A stretch of DNA of 64,000 nt from Lepisosteus oculatus (Eukaryota; Chordata; Actinopteri; Semionotiformes; Lepisosteidae), in NCBI RefSeq assembly GCF_040954835.1, contig NC_090696.1, forward strand, positions 72,167,722 to 72,231,721. The letters are read 5' to 3'. Below, piece by piece: positions 38,066 through 64,000 of the stretch. The notes beneath the pieces are model-generated. The model saw only the letters and a list, made by a program, of their open reading frames with translations. It had not been told where the DNA came from and did not search any database. The translations under genes were made by a program, and so were the position numbers. Every line of letters starts with the position of its first letter. Within the stretch, counting starts at the first letter, position 1.

Positions 38066-50110
<12,045 letters not shown>

Positions 50111-55156: not shown

Positions 55157-56693
55157 TGAACTTGAACTTGAACTTTATTGCCATGTGTAACCGGTACATG
55201 TACTGGTACAATGGAATTCTTACTTACAGAAAGTCTCTCGATTGTTAAAACAAGTGTAAAAACACAAAGTGCAGACAGTGCATCAAGACAATATACAAAC
55301 AAACAGTAGACAATGTACAAGTAAACAAGTAAACAGTTTGAATGTAAACAATGCAGACGTGTAAACAATGACTGAATATGTGCAATAAATAAGAAATCAT
55401 AATGAGGTAGAGGGTATAGGTGTGATCCGAGGGGCATGGCTAAATGTGTTCGCCAATCACGCTGCTTGTGGATAGAAGCTATTGAGGAATCTGGTGGTAC
55501 TGTAAGTGGCCATATGCTCTTATATCTCTTGCCTGAGGGCAGTGGGGTGAAGAACTGATGCCCGGGGTGGTGACTGTCCTCTGTGATGGCCAGAATTCTA
55601 CCACGGCAGCGGTCCTCATAGAGCTGTTTAATCTCGGTGAGACCACAACCGATGATCTTCTGGACCATATTGACCATTCTCTGCAGTGCCTTTTTTTCTT
55701 GAGAAGACGTGTTGCTGTACTACTCGGTGATCCCGTTGGTGAGGATGCTCTCGATGGTGCAGCGGTAGAAGTTCACCAACACAGGTACTGGCATCCCCCA
55801 TCGCTTGAGGCACCTCAGGAAATAAAGGCGCTGCTGAGCCTTCTTCAAGATAGAGTCAGTGTTCACAGTCCATGTTAGATCTTTATTCCCAAAAACCTAA
55901 CTCCCAAAAACCTAAAGCTGGTGACTGTTTCCACTTCCGTTCCATCAATTCTGAGTGGGCTGTGAGTGTGTGGCCTGTGTCTCCGAAAGTCCACTATTAG
56001 CTCTTTCGTTTTATTTACGTTCAAGTCGAGGTTATTGCTATGACACCACCTAAGCAGCTGTACAACTTCATCCCTGTAAGTGGACTCGTCATCATCGCTG
56101 ATCAGGCCTATTATAGTGGTGTCATCGGCAAACTTAATGATGCGGTTGTTGCTGTGTCTTGCTGTGCAGTCGTGAGTGAACAGGGAGTACAACCTTGGAC
56201 TCAGACAGCAGCCTTGTGGGGTTCCAGTGCTCAGGGTGAGTGGTGTTGATGTTTTATTACCTATCCGCACCACATGTGGTCTCTTGATTAGAAAGTCCAG
56301 CAGCCAGTTGCAGACAGAGTTGCACAGTCCTAATCCCCCGAGCTTTATCACCAGTTGACTGGGTATGATGGAATTGAATGCTGAACTGTAGTCCACAAAC
56401 AGCATTCTCACATACGAGTTCTTAGTGTCCAGGTGTTCCAAGGCTGTATGTAGAGCCAGGGAGACAGCATCATCCACTGATCTGTTGTTCTTGTAGGCAA
56501 ACTGCAAGGGGTCCAGGGACTCTGTTATGGAGGAGTTGATGTGTGACAACACCAGCTTCTCCAGGCATTTCATCACCACAGATGTAAATGCTACTGGGCG
56601 GTAATCGTTCAGGCATGTCACTTTTGCCTTTTTGGGGAGTGAAACAATAGTGTTTTTTTTTAGCAAGTGGTTTTTAAAGACAAGCTGCTGCAA
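55157..56693 (-). mobile_element. 5'-truncated LINE, CR1/L2-like reverse transcriptase
   Basis: A minus-strand frame at 56693-55875 encodes a typical LINE reverse transcriptase: [66 protein letters not shown], the catalytic FADD in [12 protein letters not shown], and FRFLGV. The frame then breaks (stop near 55875, near-duplicate words around 55890-55915), and the C-terminal part continues in other frames down to about 55560. The 3' end has ACTTTATT preceded by repeated CTTGAA words (a CAAG-rich tail on the minus strand). The 5' half, including any endonuclease, is missing, so this copy is dead. Clade placement is from the RT motifs only. Confidence 0.85.
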
Positions 56694-56959
56694 ATCATCA
56701 AGTTTCCAAAGTTACACCTATGGTGTGTTTCTGATCAATTAAGTGGAGAACAGAAAACCCACATTGAACTTTAAAATTTGAACATTGGTTGTTCAAAGAT
56801 CTCTAACAAGTTAGTTAAACAAAACCCACCTTTTCTAAATCTATATCATCACCTTAAATGTAATCCCCTAGTTGAGTGTTAATTATTGTTTCCATAATCA
56901 AATGCCTGATACAAGTTATATTTATTGACCTATATTTAAATGATCCAGTTTATTGTGCA

Positions 56960-59090: not shown

Positions 59091-59806
59091 TGTTGGTGCA
59101 GTAGGTTGATAGACTACACTGAACAGTCCAGTCCTTGAAAAGGTCTGAAATCATTAACCTGCTCTGTCAGTGGTAGCTCTGCTACAGTGCTGACCCTAGA
59201 ATATACAGCATAAGGAGAGTGCAAGTCAACTTTCTTAGGACTTATTAAAATCAAATTAATTGAATTTTGTTATGAAGTATTAAGTACAGTAATTAACATT
59301 AGTTAATACACAGCAATAACTTTGTAAAATAGGTGTTTTCTGACAGTATTTGAAAAATGTGTGAATTCAATTATCGTTACTGTTGTCAGGGGGCATGACA
59401 ACGTCTAGCTTTCCCTTTTGCTTTTGAAGGTTTGGTTGAATTAATCATTACGGCAGCTGAAACTAAAAATGGCTCACAGAATACCAGTATTTTGATGAAT
59501 GATCATGGTAATCCACCCTTTCTGCACTTCAGTCACTGAGCACAGCACCTTGAGGTTAACACTAACCTGGAAGCTAAAAGCACACATGGAAAGAGAAATA
59601 TCTTCGATTTAATTAACTTCATTTGTTTACATGCCCTAGTTTTTCCCCCGAAGGCCATGATGAAAGAAAGAGTGGAGGTGGCACATTCTTGAGTTCTAAA
59701 AAACCCCAATGTGTTCAGATGAACAAATGCTGGCACTGGGAAGGGGTGTGATTCACGTTAATCATCTTTTAAAAGCGAATTCGCTCTCGGGTCTTCACAT
59801 CAGTTA
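59091..59806. other. Upstream region of the unassigned secreted-protein gene
   Basis: AT-rich. A TTTTAAAAG word at 59767-59775 is TATA-like but only about 35 bases before the ATG, so an upstream untranslated exon is as likely. Nothing else is recognised. Confidence 0.4.
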
Positions 59807-62800
59807 ATGATGGATTTCAACGCCGTTCTGCGAGTTCTGTCCTTCGTCGTTATTTTTACTCTGCTTCCTGCTGCCCCAGAAGGTACAGTACAATTCTGCT
59901 TTTTCACAGAAACACTTGTAGTCTTCCACCTAAAACTGTCATTTTATTTATAATAATTTTTATGCTATGTTAAATTTAATAGGGGGGGGAGGAATCAAAC
60001 TGAGTTGAAAAACCCCACTGAAAAAGTCTGACCCAATATAAAGTTTTCGTCTTTAGTTAAAGGACAAGAAGTTGTCATTTAAAAAAAAGGTTTTCATGAT
60101 TTGCGTTCTATATCTTGTGTTACTCTGTTCATGCATTTAACTCATATACAGTAAGTAGTGATAAAAGTAGTTTATAGTGAGCAGAAAACACGCAGTTTAT
60201 TCAAGTGAAAGAAAACCTAACACTTGAGTGGGAATATTATGTTTTTATTATTGTTAGAAGTAATGTTAATGCAAGGACTACTAATGATAATAATATTCTT
60301 TCAATCTAGTTATATTAATAATTTGAAAGTTTTTATCCTGCTTTTTCCTAAAATCAGTTCTTGTGCATTTTATAGGAAAGACTATCAAAATCTGCAGAAA
60401 GCGTTTACGCCGTGAGTATCAGAAGACTTTAAAATTTGTCTTTCAAATTTCATTCTTTTTACAATTGGTAGCAAGGGTTAAATCTCAAAAGACGGTAGCA
60501 GACCAAGATACAAGAAGAAATGAAGTATCATGCTGAATCTGTTCGATGGGTGTTACTACCTGTGGTGGTTGGTGTCTGTGTGTGCATCACTTTGTGGTTT
60601 CTGTGAGTCGCCTAAATATATATATATATTATGTAATTACATTTTCTGGGCTTGTGGTGCTACAGAAATGTACTGAATCTAATATATTGTTCAAAGAGTG
60701 CTTTTATGACCACAGATGACAAGAGGCTAAACTACCACTAGCTTGATCATTTTACATGTTTGCCATTTTGGCAAAATTGTGTGGAGCTAAAAAATAGTAC
60801 GGTATGTAGAGAGATATTTTAAGACTTTCTGCTGTTGCTTCTACCACGAATTCACTCAAGGGAGTGAATGCTTATGCAATCCTTATGTTTTAGTTTTTTG
60901 TTTTTCTTTGTAAGTTTCTTCACCCACAAAAGTGATCATATTGAACAATAATGTTTTGATTAAAAATGTTCACTTTGAAAGCATATACATCACTTGTTAT
61001 TCAACAAAATGGCACATCATTGGAAAGCACTAAATAAGTCTCTCATAAATTTCAGGATTTAGAAAATGAATCATGATTGTTGAACTGGTCAAAGTTGCAG
61101 TCTCCCTTTAATTTACTAAAATATTAATAACAATATATTACTATATTAAATAAGCAGATGGAAATATCCGATTGCTGAACAGCACAGTTAATTTGTAATT
61201 CAAATTACAGTGCCAATTTGTTATTCAAAATGGGGCTCCAACCCTAGTTCTGGACAACCCAAAATCCTGAAGGTTTGTCATGTAACCTTTAAAATGCTAA
61301 TTCAAAATTTCAAAAGACATAGGACAATTTAATTTGAACTATTAAGCAAGTGATTCATTACACTGAGCAGTTAGATATAATGTACAGTAGAAAACCCTTC
61401 ATTCCCCAAAGGCTAGAGTTCTCTTAATTTGACAAAGTTCTCTCAGTTGGACAAATTAATCACTTAATTGATTAGTAACTTTCAAGTGTTCTCAACTATT
61501 AGCTATAGATGATTTGGGGTGACCTCTAAGACTTACTGTACTGGGGCTCTCAAAGGTACAGACTGGAGACTCGTCATAGAGTTTCAAGGTCCAGATACAG
61601 CTAAAGATATGTTTCTCTAAAAGTAATCCTTCTTACTTTGCTATTATAATTACAGATGTGGCAAAAAAATCTGATCGTGCTTATCTTGCAGGGCTGCAGA
61701 AACGTTCCGAGTATCAGTACTCTTATATAGAGGGCTTTGAGCTGCCTCCAGAAGACGATGATCAAATAATTTCCTGCCAGGTTTATGAAATCACAACCCC
61801 ATCTCCAACTACCGAGGCACCGTCTATGACAGACCAGGATAAAACTGAGGCAGAGGCCAAGACCACAGAGAGCATTCCCATCACCACCACCGCTGCTCCA
61901 ACTACTGCTGCGACAACCACAGCCAAGGCTACAGAAGAACCAAAACCTTCTCCCACACCTCCGACACCTCCCACACCTCGCACTCCTCCTACACCTCCCA
62001 CACCTCGCACGCCTCCCACGCCTCGCACACCTCGCACGCCTCCCACGCCTCCCACACCTCGCACGCCTCCCACGCCTCGCACACCTCGCACGCCTCCTAC
62101 ACCTCGCACGCCTCCCACACCTCGCACTCCTCCTACACCTCGCACGCCTCGCACGCCTCCTACGCCTCGCACGCCTCCCACCCAAGCTCCCCCTTCTGGG
62201 CGTGGCTATTATATGTATCCAATTATTGTAGATCTGGCTTCCAAAAAGATCTATTCTGCAGCCAGTCTTCCAAAAACAGAAGAAAGTTATCAGAGTTCTC
62301 CTCTTGCACCAATACCCGGGGAAGAAGTACCCACAGCAGTTCATATTGATCCAGGAAAGTATCCTTCTTGGATAAACTGGAGCTCCTATGGTGCTTTACC
62401 TGGTAGCAAGAAGGGTGTTTATACTAATCCTGTTGTAGTTGTTGGTAAACCTCCTAATCTTCCGCCACAAAATGCAAATGTCGAGCCTCATGGTACAGGT
62501 ACAGTATTAAAACCCACCCAAAACAAGCCTCCAATCAGACTAAATCCACCAGCGGTATTGCAGCTACCTGGCGGTGGTTCAGTACAGTACTCTCCAAATG
62601 TAGGTTCAGGTAAGCCATTGGTACTGCAGCTACCCTCCACTGGTTCAGTGTTCCATTCAGGAAGAGGATCCCAGACAAGACCTAACCTGCCTTTAGTGAT
62701 TCAGGTACCAATAGCTAGTAGGTCTCAATCAAGAGCTGAAAATCAGGCATCAAAAGGTGGCACTAAAACCTGCTCTTCTGGATCCAGCTCGCCATCCAGC

Positions 62801-63133
62801 TCCAACTCACCATCTAAACCCAGACAGCCAATGATGGTTCAGATTCCAGCTAGTGGTTCACCGTCAGGTGGATCAGGATTCCTGACAAGACCAAATCAAC
62901 CCTCAGTAGTTTGGATGCACAATGGAGGATCAGCAGCTGGTACTCATGGAGCTGGATCCCGGACAGGATCCTATACGCAGGATCGAGCAAACAGACAACC
63001 AAACCCAAGCTCCTATCAGGCACTGCCCCAAGGAACAGTTGTCAAAGCCCCTTTCTTTCGACGTATCTATCCCATCCGTCTTCCTGCACAAACTCTTGGG
63101 ACAGGAGACAAAAAATGTAAAAACCAGCAATAA
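59807..63133 (+). CDS. Unassigned secreted Pro/Thr-rich repeat protein
   Basis: I do not recognise this gene. Three exons (59807-59882, 60376-60411, 61656-63133) join in frame, both introns phase 1, to 529 aa. Exon 1 gives a signal peptide (MMDFNAVLRVLSF, then VVIFTLLPAA); two in-frame ATGs overlap the start. Exon 2 (36 nt) gives a basic segment ending RKRLR. Exon 3 continues with a QKR dibasic site, an acidic stretch (LPPEDDDQ), and a Thr-rich TTTAAPTTAATTT stretch. About 25 TPP/TPR triplets follow (residues about 137-213). The tail, rich in Pro, Gly, Ser and Tyr, has a sequon (NWS) and degenerate repeats around VLQLP, VIQVP and VQIP, and ends KKCKNQQ. Four Cys are scattered. An extracellular matrix or mucin-like role is inferred from composition only. 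It lies next to PKD2, where SPP1 is expected, but on the opposite strand to SPP1. AATAAA follows 165 bases after the stop. The splice sites are plausible by eye; exon 2 is the weakest part. Confidence 0.65.
60412..61655 (+). other. Second intron of the unassigned secreted-protein gene
   Basis: About 1.2 kb of AT-rich DNA. Further small phase-1 exons could be hidden here; I found none with both good splice sites and an open frame. Confidence 0.5.
61950..62190 (+). repeat. Coding 9-bp minisatellite (TPP/TPR triplets)
   Basis: A 9-base unit of the form CCTCCCACA or CCTCGCACG is repeated about 25 times inside the last exon. Variation is mostly at third codon positions and at the Pro/Arg codon (CCC/CGC). 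The antisense strand is also open across it because the unit length is a multiple of three. Confidence 0.95.
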
Positions 63134-63297: not shown

Positions 63298-63303
63298 AAT
63301 AAA
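63298..63303 (+). terminator. Polyadenylation signal of the unassigned secreted-protein gene
   Basis: AATAAA in GATGCAAAATAAAGAATCTG, 165 bases after the stop. This supports a short 3' UTR and a real transcription unit on the plus strand. Confidence 0.55.
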
Positions 63304-64000
63304 GAATCTGAATCACCAGTCCCAATAAATTCTCTACCCAAATATCAGAGTACAGAGAACTTAAAGGGCAAGGCCATATGTTAATAATAAGTGGAAATAC
63401 AAGCAGAGATTCGGTTAGAATTGCATCGCTTCATTGGTGTTAATTTTCTTGTAAACCTCTGTGGAGCTGGCAGTGTGTCAGAAGATGAATGACAAGAGCT
63501 CTGCTGGGTGGGCGCATATCTGCGTCAGGAGGTCCTCTTGCTTCTCCCTGCAGTACGTGGGACATAGCTGTCAGCGAAATCCTAAAAAACAATCTGTGAT
63601 CCCAATGGTTTTGATAGAACAAAGTATCTCGCATATTTAATACTTTCACCTTAGAAGGCATGTTAAAAACATAACTATGATAAGGTGTTACAGATTTGAC
63701 TATACATCTCACTTTATTACAGTGATGGTTATGTAAGAAAACGTTTTTGTAATTTACATTGTGACCATGGTTGTTGTGTTTTGTTTTGCGTTACGAGGAG
63801 TTTCCCGAGCTCAGTAGACATTTGCTTTTCTTGCAAATAAATTCTAGAAACTATTCTTTCGAACTCTAAATACAGCAGTGATGTCAAGCTAAAAGTTATA
63901 AAAGCGAAGGTCTGTTTTCATTTAAGAAGGATATCTTATACACAGGAGGGTAGCTGCGCCAGCATGCGTAGTCTGCAAAGGAACAACATTCAGGTTCTTC
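63304..64000. other. Right edge of the window
   Basis: AT-rich spacer. A perfect TATAAAAG lies at 63897-63904 and could belong to a gene beyond the window. From about 63949 the flank of another fold-back repeat begins (CCAGCATGCGTAGTCTGCAA then AGGAACAA) and is cut by the window end. Confidence 0.5.
63949..64000. repeat. Fold-back element, copy 4, truncated by the window end
   Basis: Reads GTAGCTGCGCCAGCATGCGT, AGTCTGCAAAGGAACAA. This is the outer flank of the palindromic family seen at 27655, 41601 and 54610, in the orientation of copy 3. Confidence 0.6.

Follow-up and report, generated by a model that had tools for sequence, protein, structure and literature searches.

Introduction

ODAPH is an enamel gene that lies outside the SCPP family and whose loss leads to human amelogenesis imperfecta. 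The mouse protein is described as a basal-lamina component that holds maturation ameloblasts to the enamel; without it the ameloblasts detach and cysts form (PMC13331816). It is also reported to bind LAMC2 (PMC12273980). In the human gene intron 1 splits the Gly23 codon, in phase 1 (c.67+1 / c.68-2; PMC13331816). The non-mammalian form is described from alligator, Anolis, caecilian, gar and reedfish as having three exons and two introns, both in phase 1 (Liang et al. 2021, PMC7807025). In that account it has a Ser-Ser-Glu-Glu motif, exon 2 encodes a single Cys and exon 3 one or two, and its position, found by synteny, is downstream of CDKL2 (PMC7807025). For the SCPP genes, the same source gives phase 0 for all introns (PMC7807025), and SxE phosphorylation sites are described elsewhere (PMC13331816).

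The locus

Our analysis covered the window (the whole 64-kb stretch of DNA presented here, C1:72167722-72231721 of a 1.2-Gb genome) together with the next 200 kb, giving a locus of 264 kb. The gene under study, which we call gene 1, is near the end of the window. From it towards the window start lie PKD2 (reversed), ABCG2 and PPM1K, recognised by PDB matches; a Pfam scan matched both PKD2 exons and gave none for one PPM1K and two ABCG2 exons. The initial annotation had placed a secreted-protein gene beside PKD2, and this is very likely real.

In the other direction the order is gene 2, CDKL2 on the minus strand (identified by its best PDB match), an ORF that we take by eye, with no Pfam confirmation, to be G3BP-like, then USO1 (identified by Pfam) and finally SCPP-type signal exons. 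Gene 2 and CDKL2 are arranged tail-to-tail. Reading downstream from CDKL2, gene 2 is the next recognised gene and gene 1 follows it, in a stretch where intervening short-exon genes could be missed.

Two other features of the window were noted in passing. A candidate LINE-type reverse-transcriptase ORF, judged by eye, occupies 55875-56711 on the minus strand, about 3 kb before gene 1, and a long trinucleotide array, open in frames that give poly-Thr, poly-Gln or poly-Asn, occupies 49403-49500, immediately ahead of the PKD2 5′ end.

Structure of gene 1

The features of gene 1, in window coordinates, are as follows.

59807..59882, plus strand: exon 1, with the start codon and putative signal peptide; its 3′ end follows the first base of a Gly codon (phase 1)
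60376..60411, plus strand: exon 2, 36 nt, encoding KTIKICRKRLR with one Cys, phase 1 at both ends
61656..63133, plus strand: exon 3, the remaining protein with CQVYEIT motif, Thr-rich zone, array and tail, ending in a TAA stop
61775..61795, plus strand: CQ[IV]xx[ILV]T motif, common with gene 2, with a looser likeness to mouse ODAPH near Cys41
61950..62181, plus strand: 9-bp in-frame tandem array of 25 Thr-Pro-Pro or Thr-Pro-Arg units
62182..63130, plus strand: Pro/Gly/Ser/Tyr-rich tail with four spaced QLP/QVP/QIP repeats
63298-63303 and 63324-63329 (span 63298..63329), plus strand: two AATAAA candidate polyadenylation-type signals, by direct reading

Put together, the exons form one frame of 1590 nt that encodes 529 aa and a stop, across two GT-AG introns in phase 1, which confirms the gene model of the initial annotation. 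A second in-frame ATG is present in exon 1 at 59810. The zones that had been described in the protein are likewise all there: a hydrophobic putative signal peptide (judged by eye), basic segments (KICRKRLR, KK and KR), an acidic PEDDD, the Thr-rich zone, the TPP/TPR array and the Pro/Gly/Ser-rich tail. The protein is basic (pI 10.1), as is that of gene 2 (pI 10.25).

Splice sites are of moderate strength, with the two donors ranking 20 and 22 among 313 GTs and the two acceptors 9 and 10 among 352 AGs in the 5.4 kb scored. At 59767..59774 on the plus strand there is a TTTTAAAA box, a putative TATA-like element, ending 32 nt 5′ of the ATG. A sigma-70 promoter scan found nothing, the model being ill-suited to vertebrate DNA.

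The array holds 13 TPP and 12 TPR units. Within the 9-bp unit six positions are invariant; at two more, both third codon positions, every change is silent, and the one left accounts for the Pro/Arg switch. Variation that is silent save at this one position fits selection on the protein. Past the array the tail stays open for 949 nt (316 codons), a length reached by none of 5000 first-order Markov resamples (longest 224), and is thus more open than chance. Gene 1 is probably a real gene, and the strongest support for this is that a second gene nearby has the identical three-exon, phase-1/phase-1 layout.

The neighbouring gene

L002:4299-7003, about 4.3 kb beyond the window end, plus strand: gene 2, three exons, 356 aa

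Gene 2 has a signal exon starting with MMD, an exon 2 of 108 nt with one Cys, and a long exon 3. Both introns are in phase 1, and intron 1 is GC-AG, with a GC donor. Its protein has an SSEE motif at 304, an RRKR site, and Cys at 60, 92 and 241; exon 2 supplies one of these three and exon 3 the other two. Gene 2 therefore fits the non-mammalian Odaph description, gar included, at every point listed above (PMC7807025).

Kinship of the two genes

About 5.2 kb separate gene 1 from gene 2, and both are on the plus strand, so that the pair is most simply explained by a direct tandem duplication. Besides their orientation the two have in common three exons, the two intron phases, the MMD start, a Gly codon split between exons 1 and 2, a single exon 2 Cys and a CQV motif in exon 3. 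Over exon 3 residues 1-63 the pair scores 60, which none of 5000 shuffles reached (maximum 54). The core segments of exon 3 are also mutual best matches, self-matches excluded, among the 1180 ORFs in the 264 kb that are 60 aa or longer. In six frames of the same DNA the pattern CQ[IV]xx[ILV]T occurs three times: in gene 1, in gene 2, and once elsewhere.

Upstream similarity is modest. For the 150 nt 5′ of the ATG it was equalled by 11 of 2000 shuffles and by 14 of 1000 random local 150-mers, and for the nearest 60 nt by 124 of 2000 shuffles. The TTTTAAAA box precedes the ATG in both genes. A global MAFFT alignment of the two misplaced exon 2, and our kinship claims rest on the other comparisons. 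When the genome was searched with gene 2 as query, gene 1 was not among the matches listed.

Gene 1 could instead be an unrelated secreted gene, mucin-like or Pro-rich, that happens to adjoin Odaph and resembles it in layout by coincidence. Beyond the first ~50 residues of exon 3 the identity of the pair is low; exon 1 and exon 2 similarities are within chance (985 and 1271 of 5000 shuffles, respectively), and the modest upstream similarity also suits this reading. At E up to 10, the gene 1 protein, its first 100 aa and the gene 2 last-exon ORF (three queries) matched no Pfam family, the ODAPH model (PF15848) included. Yet intron phases, exon number, MMD start, split Gly, CQV and orientation are many coincidences to find in adjacent genes, and we consider an unrelated origin unlikely.

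The genes do differ. SSEE, the RRKR site and the GC-AG intron 1 are in gene 2 only, whereas the TPP/TPR array is only in gene 1, and exon 2 has 108 nt in gene 2 against 36 nt in gene 1; the likeness lies in layout, phases, start and the first part of exon 3.

Comparison with ODAPH

Since gene 1 is kin to gene 2, which itself fits the published non-mammalian Odaph, we think it likely that gene 2 is Odaph of that type and that gene 1 is a diverged tandem copy in the same orientation, an ODAPH paralog. This assignment draws on locus, gene layout and the gar description as published (PMC7807025), and not on sequence alone.

With the three-exon, non-mammalian form of ODAPH (C4orf26, PF15848) gene 1 has in common three exons, two phase-1 introns, a Pro-rich protein of secreted type, a CQ(I/V) motif, a signal exon that breaks off within a Gly codon, an exon 2 Cys with further Cys in exon 3, and a downstream locus on the CDKL2 side. 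The phase-1 split Gly at intron 1, present in both gar genes, is a likeness to the human gene also, as that is described (PMC13331816). Gene 1 differs in lacking SSEE and SxE, in having three Cys in exon 3, where the published form has one or two, and in carrying the 25-unit TPP/TPR array. Its 529 aa compare with 130 aa given for human ODAPH (PMC7807025). One defining ODAPH feature, SSEE, being absent, we label gene 1 ‘ODAPH-like’ rather than ODAPH.

Direct sequence similarity to mammalian ODAPH is weak. The CQV segment of gene 1 was compared with the mouse ODAPH segment around Cys41, and 11 of 5000 shuffles reached its score; the corresponding comparison for gene 2 was not significant (950 of 5000), and its whole ORF ranked 43 of 1180. 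The whole ORF of gene 1 ranked 2 of 1180, with a tied top score, and this is no support for ODAPH because the score arises from the TPP/TPR array and not from the CQV site. The ORF that ties with it, at L021:3851-4663 on the minus strand, is a long repeat of Thr-Pro-Ala-Pro type, and the tie is probably due to composition. Searching the gar genome with the Pfam ODAPH model gave four matches, none above the cut-off and none at this locus.

The better shuffle result of gene 1 against the mouse segment (11 of 5000, as against 950) would suit a reversed assignment, with the ODAPH ortholog proper being gene 1 and the derived copy gene 2. We regard this as quite improbable: it is gene 2 that has the SSEE, the three Cys and the CDKL2-side position of Odaph, as far as these are set out by Liang et al. 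(PMC7807025).

The initial annotation could match gene 1 to no family. That view is contradicted by its layout and its locus, both of ODAPH type: an ODAPH-like gene adjoins it, and CDKL2 comes after. Gene 1, a probable tandem ODAPH paralog, should be taken for a relative of a known enamel gene and not for a member of an unknown family. Among the ‘odaph’ literature matches listed, no title or abstract opening mentions a duplicated ODAPH, although there may be a prior report.

Comparison with the SCPP family

Gene 1 had been set in the region of the SPP1, or SIBLING, gene cluster. In part this stands, in that SCPP-type signal exons ending in phase 0 are found ~110-175 kb further on.

173113, 221381 and 236580 (coordinates of window plus 200 kb), all minus strand: SCPP-type signal-peptide exons, phase 0, with MIKVLVLLSALLCAVSCLP, MQSVAVLVCLLGTTLAFP and MRSAIVLMCLIGTTLSMP

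These three, typical by eye, are from five distinct candidates in the 264 kb, in a scan that required phase 0, and probably belong to a P/Q-rich SCPP cluster. Pfam gave no match above the cut-off for seven ORFs judged SCPP-like by eye, so it is the signal-exon scan that speaks for their putative SCPP nature.

The osteopontin model had no match in the gar genome; its controls also had none, and the search is hence uninformative on spp1. To place spp1 we looked for ORFs that carry RGD or are strongly acidic; this gave seven, four of them with RGD. The longest with RGD is a moderately acidic 310-aa ORF at L010:5919-6848 on the minus strand, ~87 kb past the window, with no Pfam match; it may be an acidic exon of an SCPP gene of MEPE or SPP1 type.

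That gene 1 is itself an SCPP gene, whether SIBLING/SPP1-like or P/Q-rich, is highly improbable. Like members of that family (SPP1, MEPE, ENAM, AMBN and the P/Q-rich genes) it encodes a secreted, Pro-rich protein in the same chromosome neighbourhood, near PKD2 and with the SCPP-type signal exons not far off. But SCPP genes have phase-0 introns, as do the nearby signal exons, which were sought and found in that phase, whereas both introns of gene 1 are in phase 1. S-x-E and S-x-D are sites for the secretory kinase, and the gene 1 protein contains neither of them, nor RGD. Its two phase-1 introns and absent SxE lead us to reject SCPP/SIBLING membership, the part of the earlier setting that does not stand. 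The link to mineralised tissue suggested at the same time is plausible.

Proposed role and significance

The role we propose for gene 1 is borrowed from mouse and human ODAPH, and we thus infer by analogy that its product may be a non-phosphorylated matrix or basal-lamina protein of the enamel- or ganoin-forming epithelium. It would be secreted by the epithelium covering teeth and scales, and the N-terminal Cys/CQV module would anchor it in the epithelium-mineral interface. The Thr-rich zone may be O-glycosylated, and the TPP/TPR array may serve as an extended spacer. Having no SxE or SSEE sites, the protein would not nucleate mineral but act as an adhesive or spacer partner that is non-phosphorylated, basic, mucin-like and Pro-rich.

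A more speculative proposal, which we think rather doubtful, is that a second, non-phosphorylated ODAPH was kept by selection in ganoid-scaled fishes for use in the ganoin-laying scale epithelium. The locus would then have split in two, one member being phosphorylated and used in teeth and enamel, the other bearing the repeat and lacking SxE sites.

Gar ganoin and tooth enamel are described as having enam, ambn and scpp5 in common (PMC8423624). In a fish with both enamel and ganoin, an ODAPH duplicate without SSEE would be a natural test of the Cys/CQV module against the phospho-serines, and would also test whether maturation genes are common to ganoin and tooth enamel.
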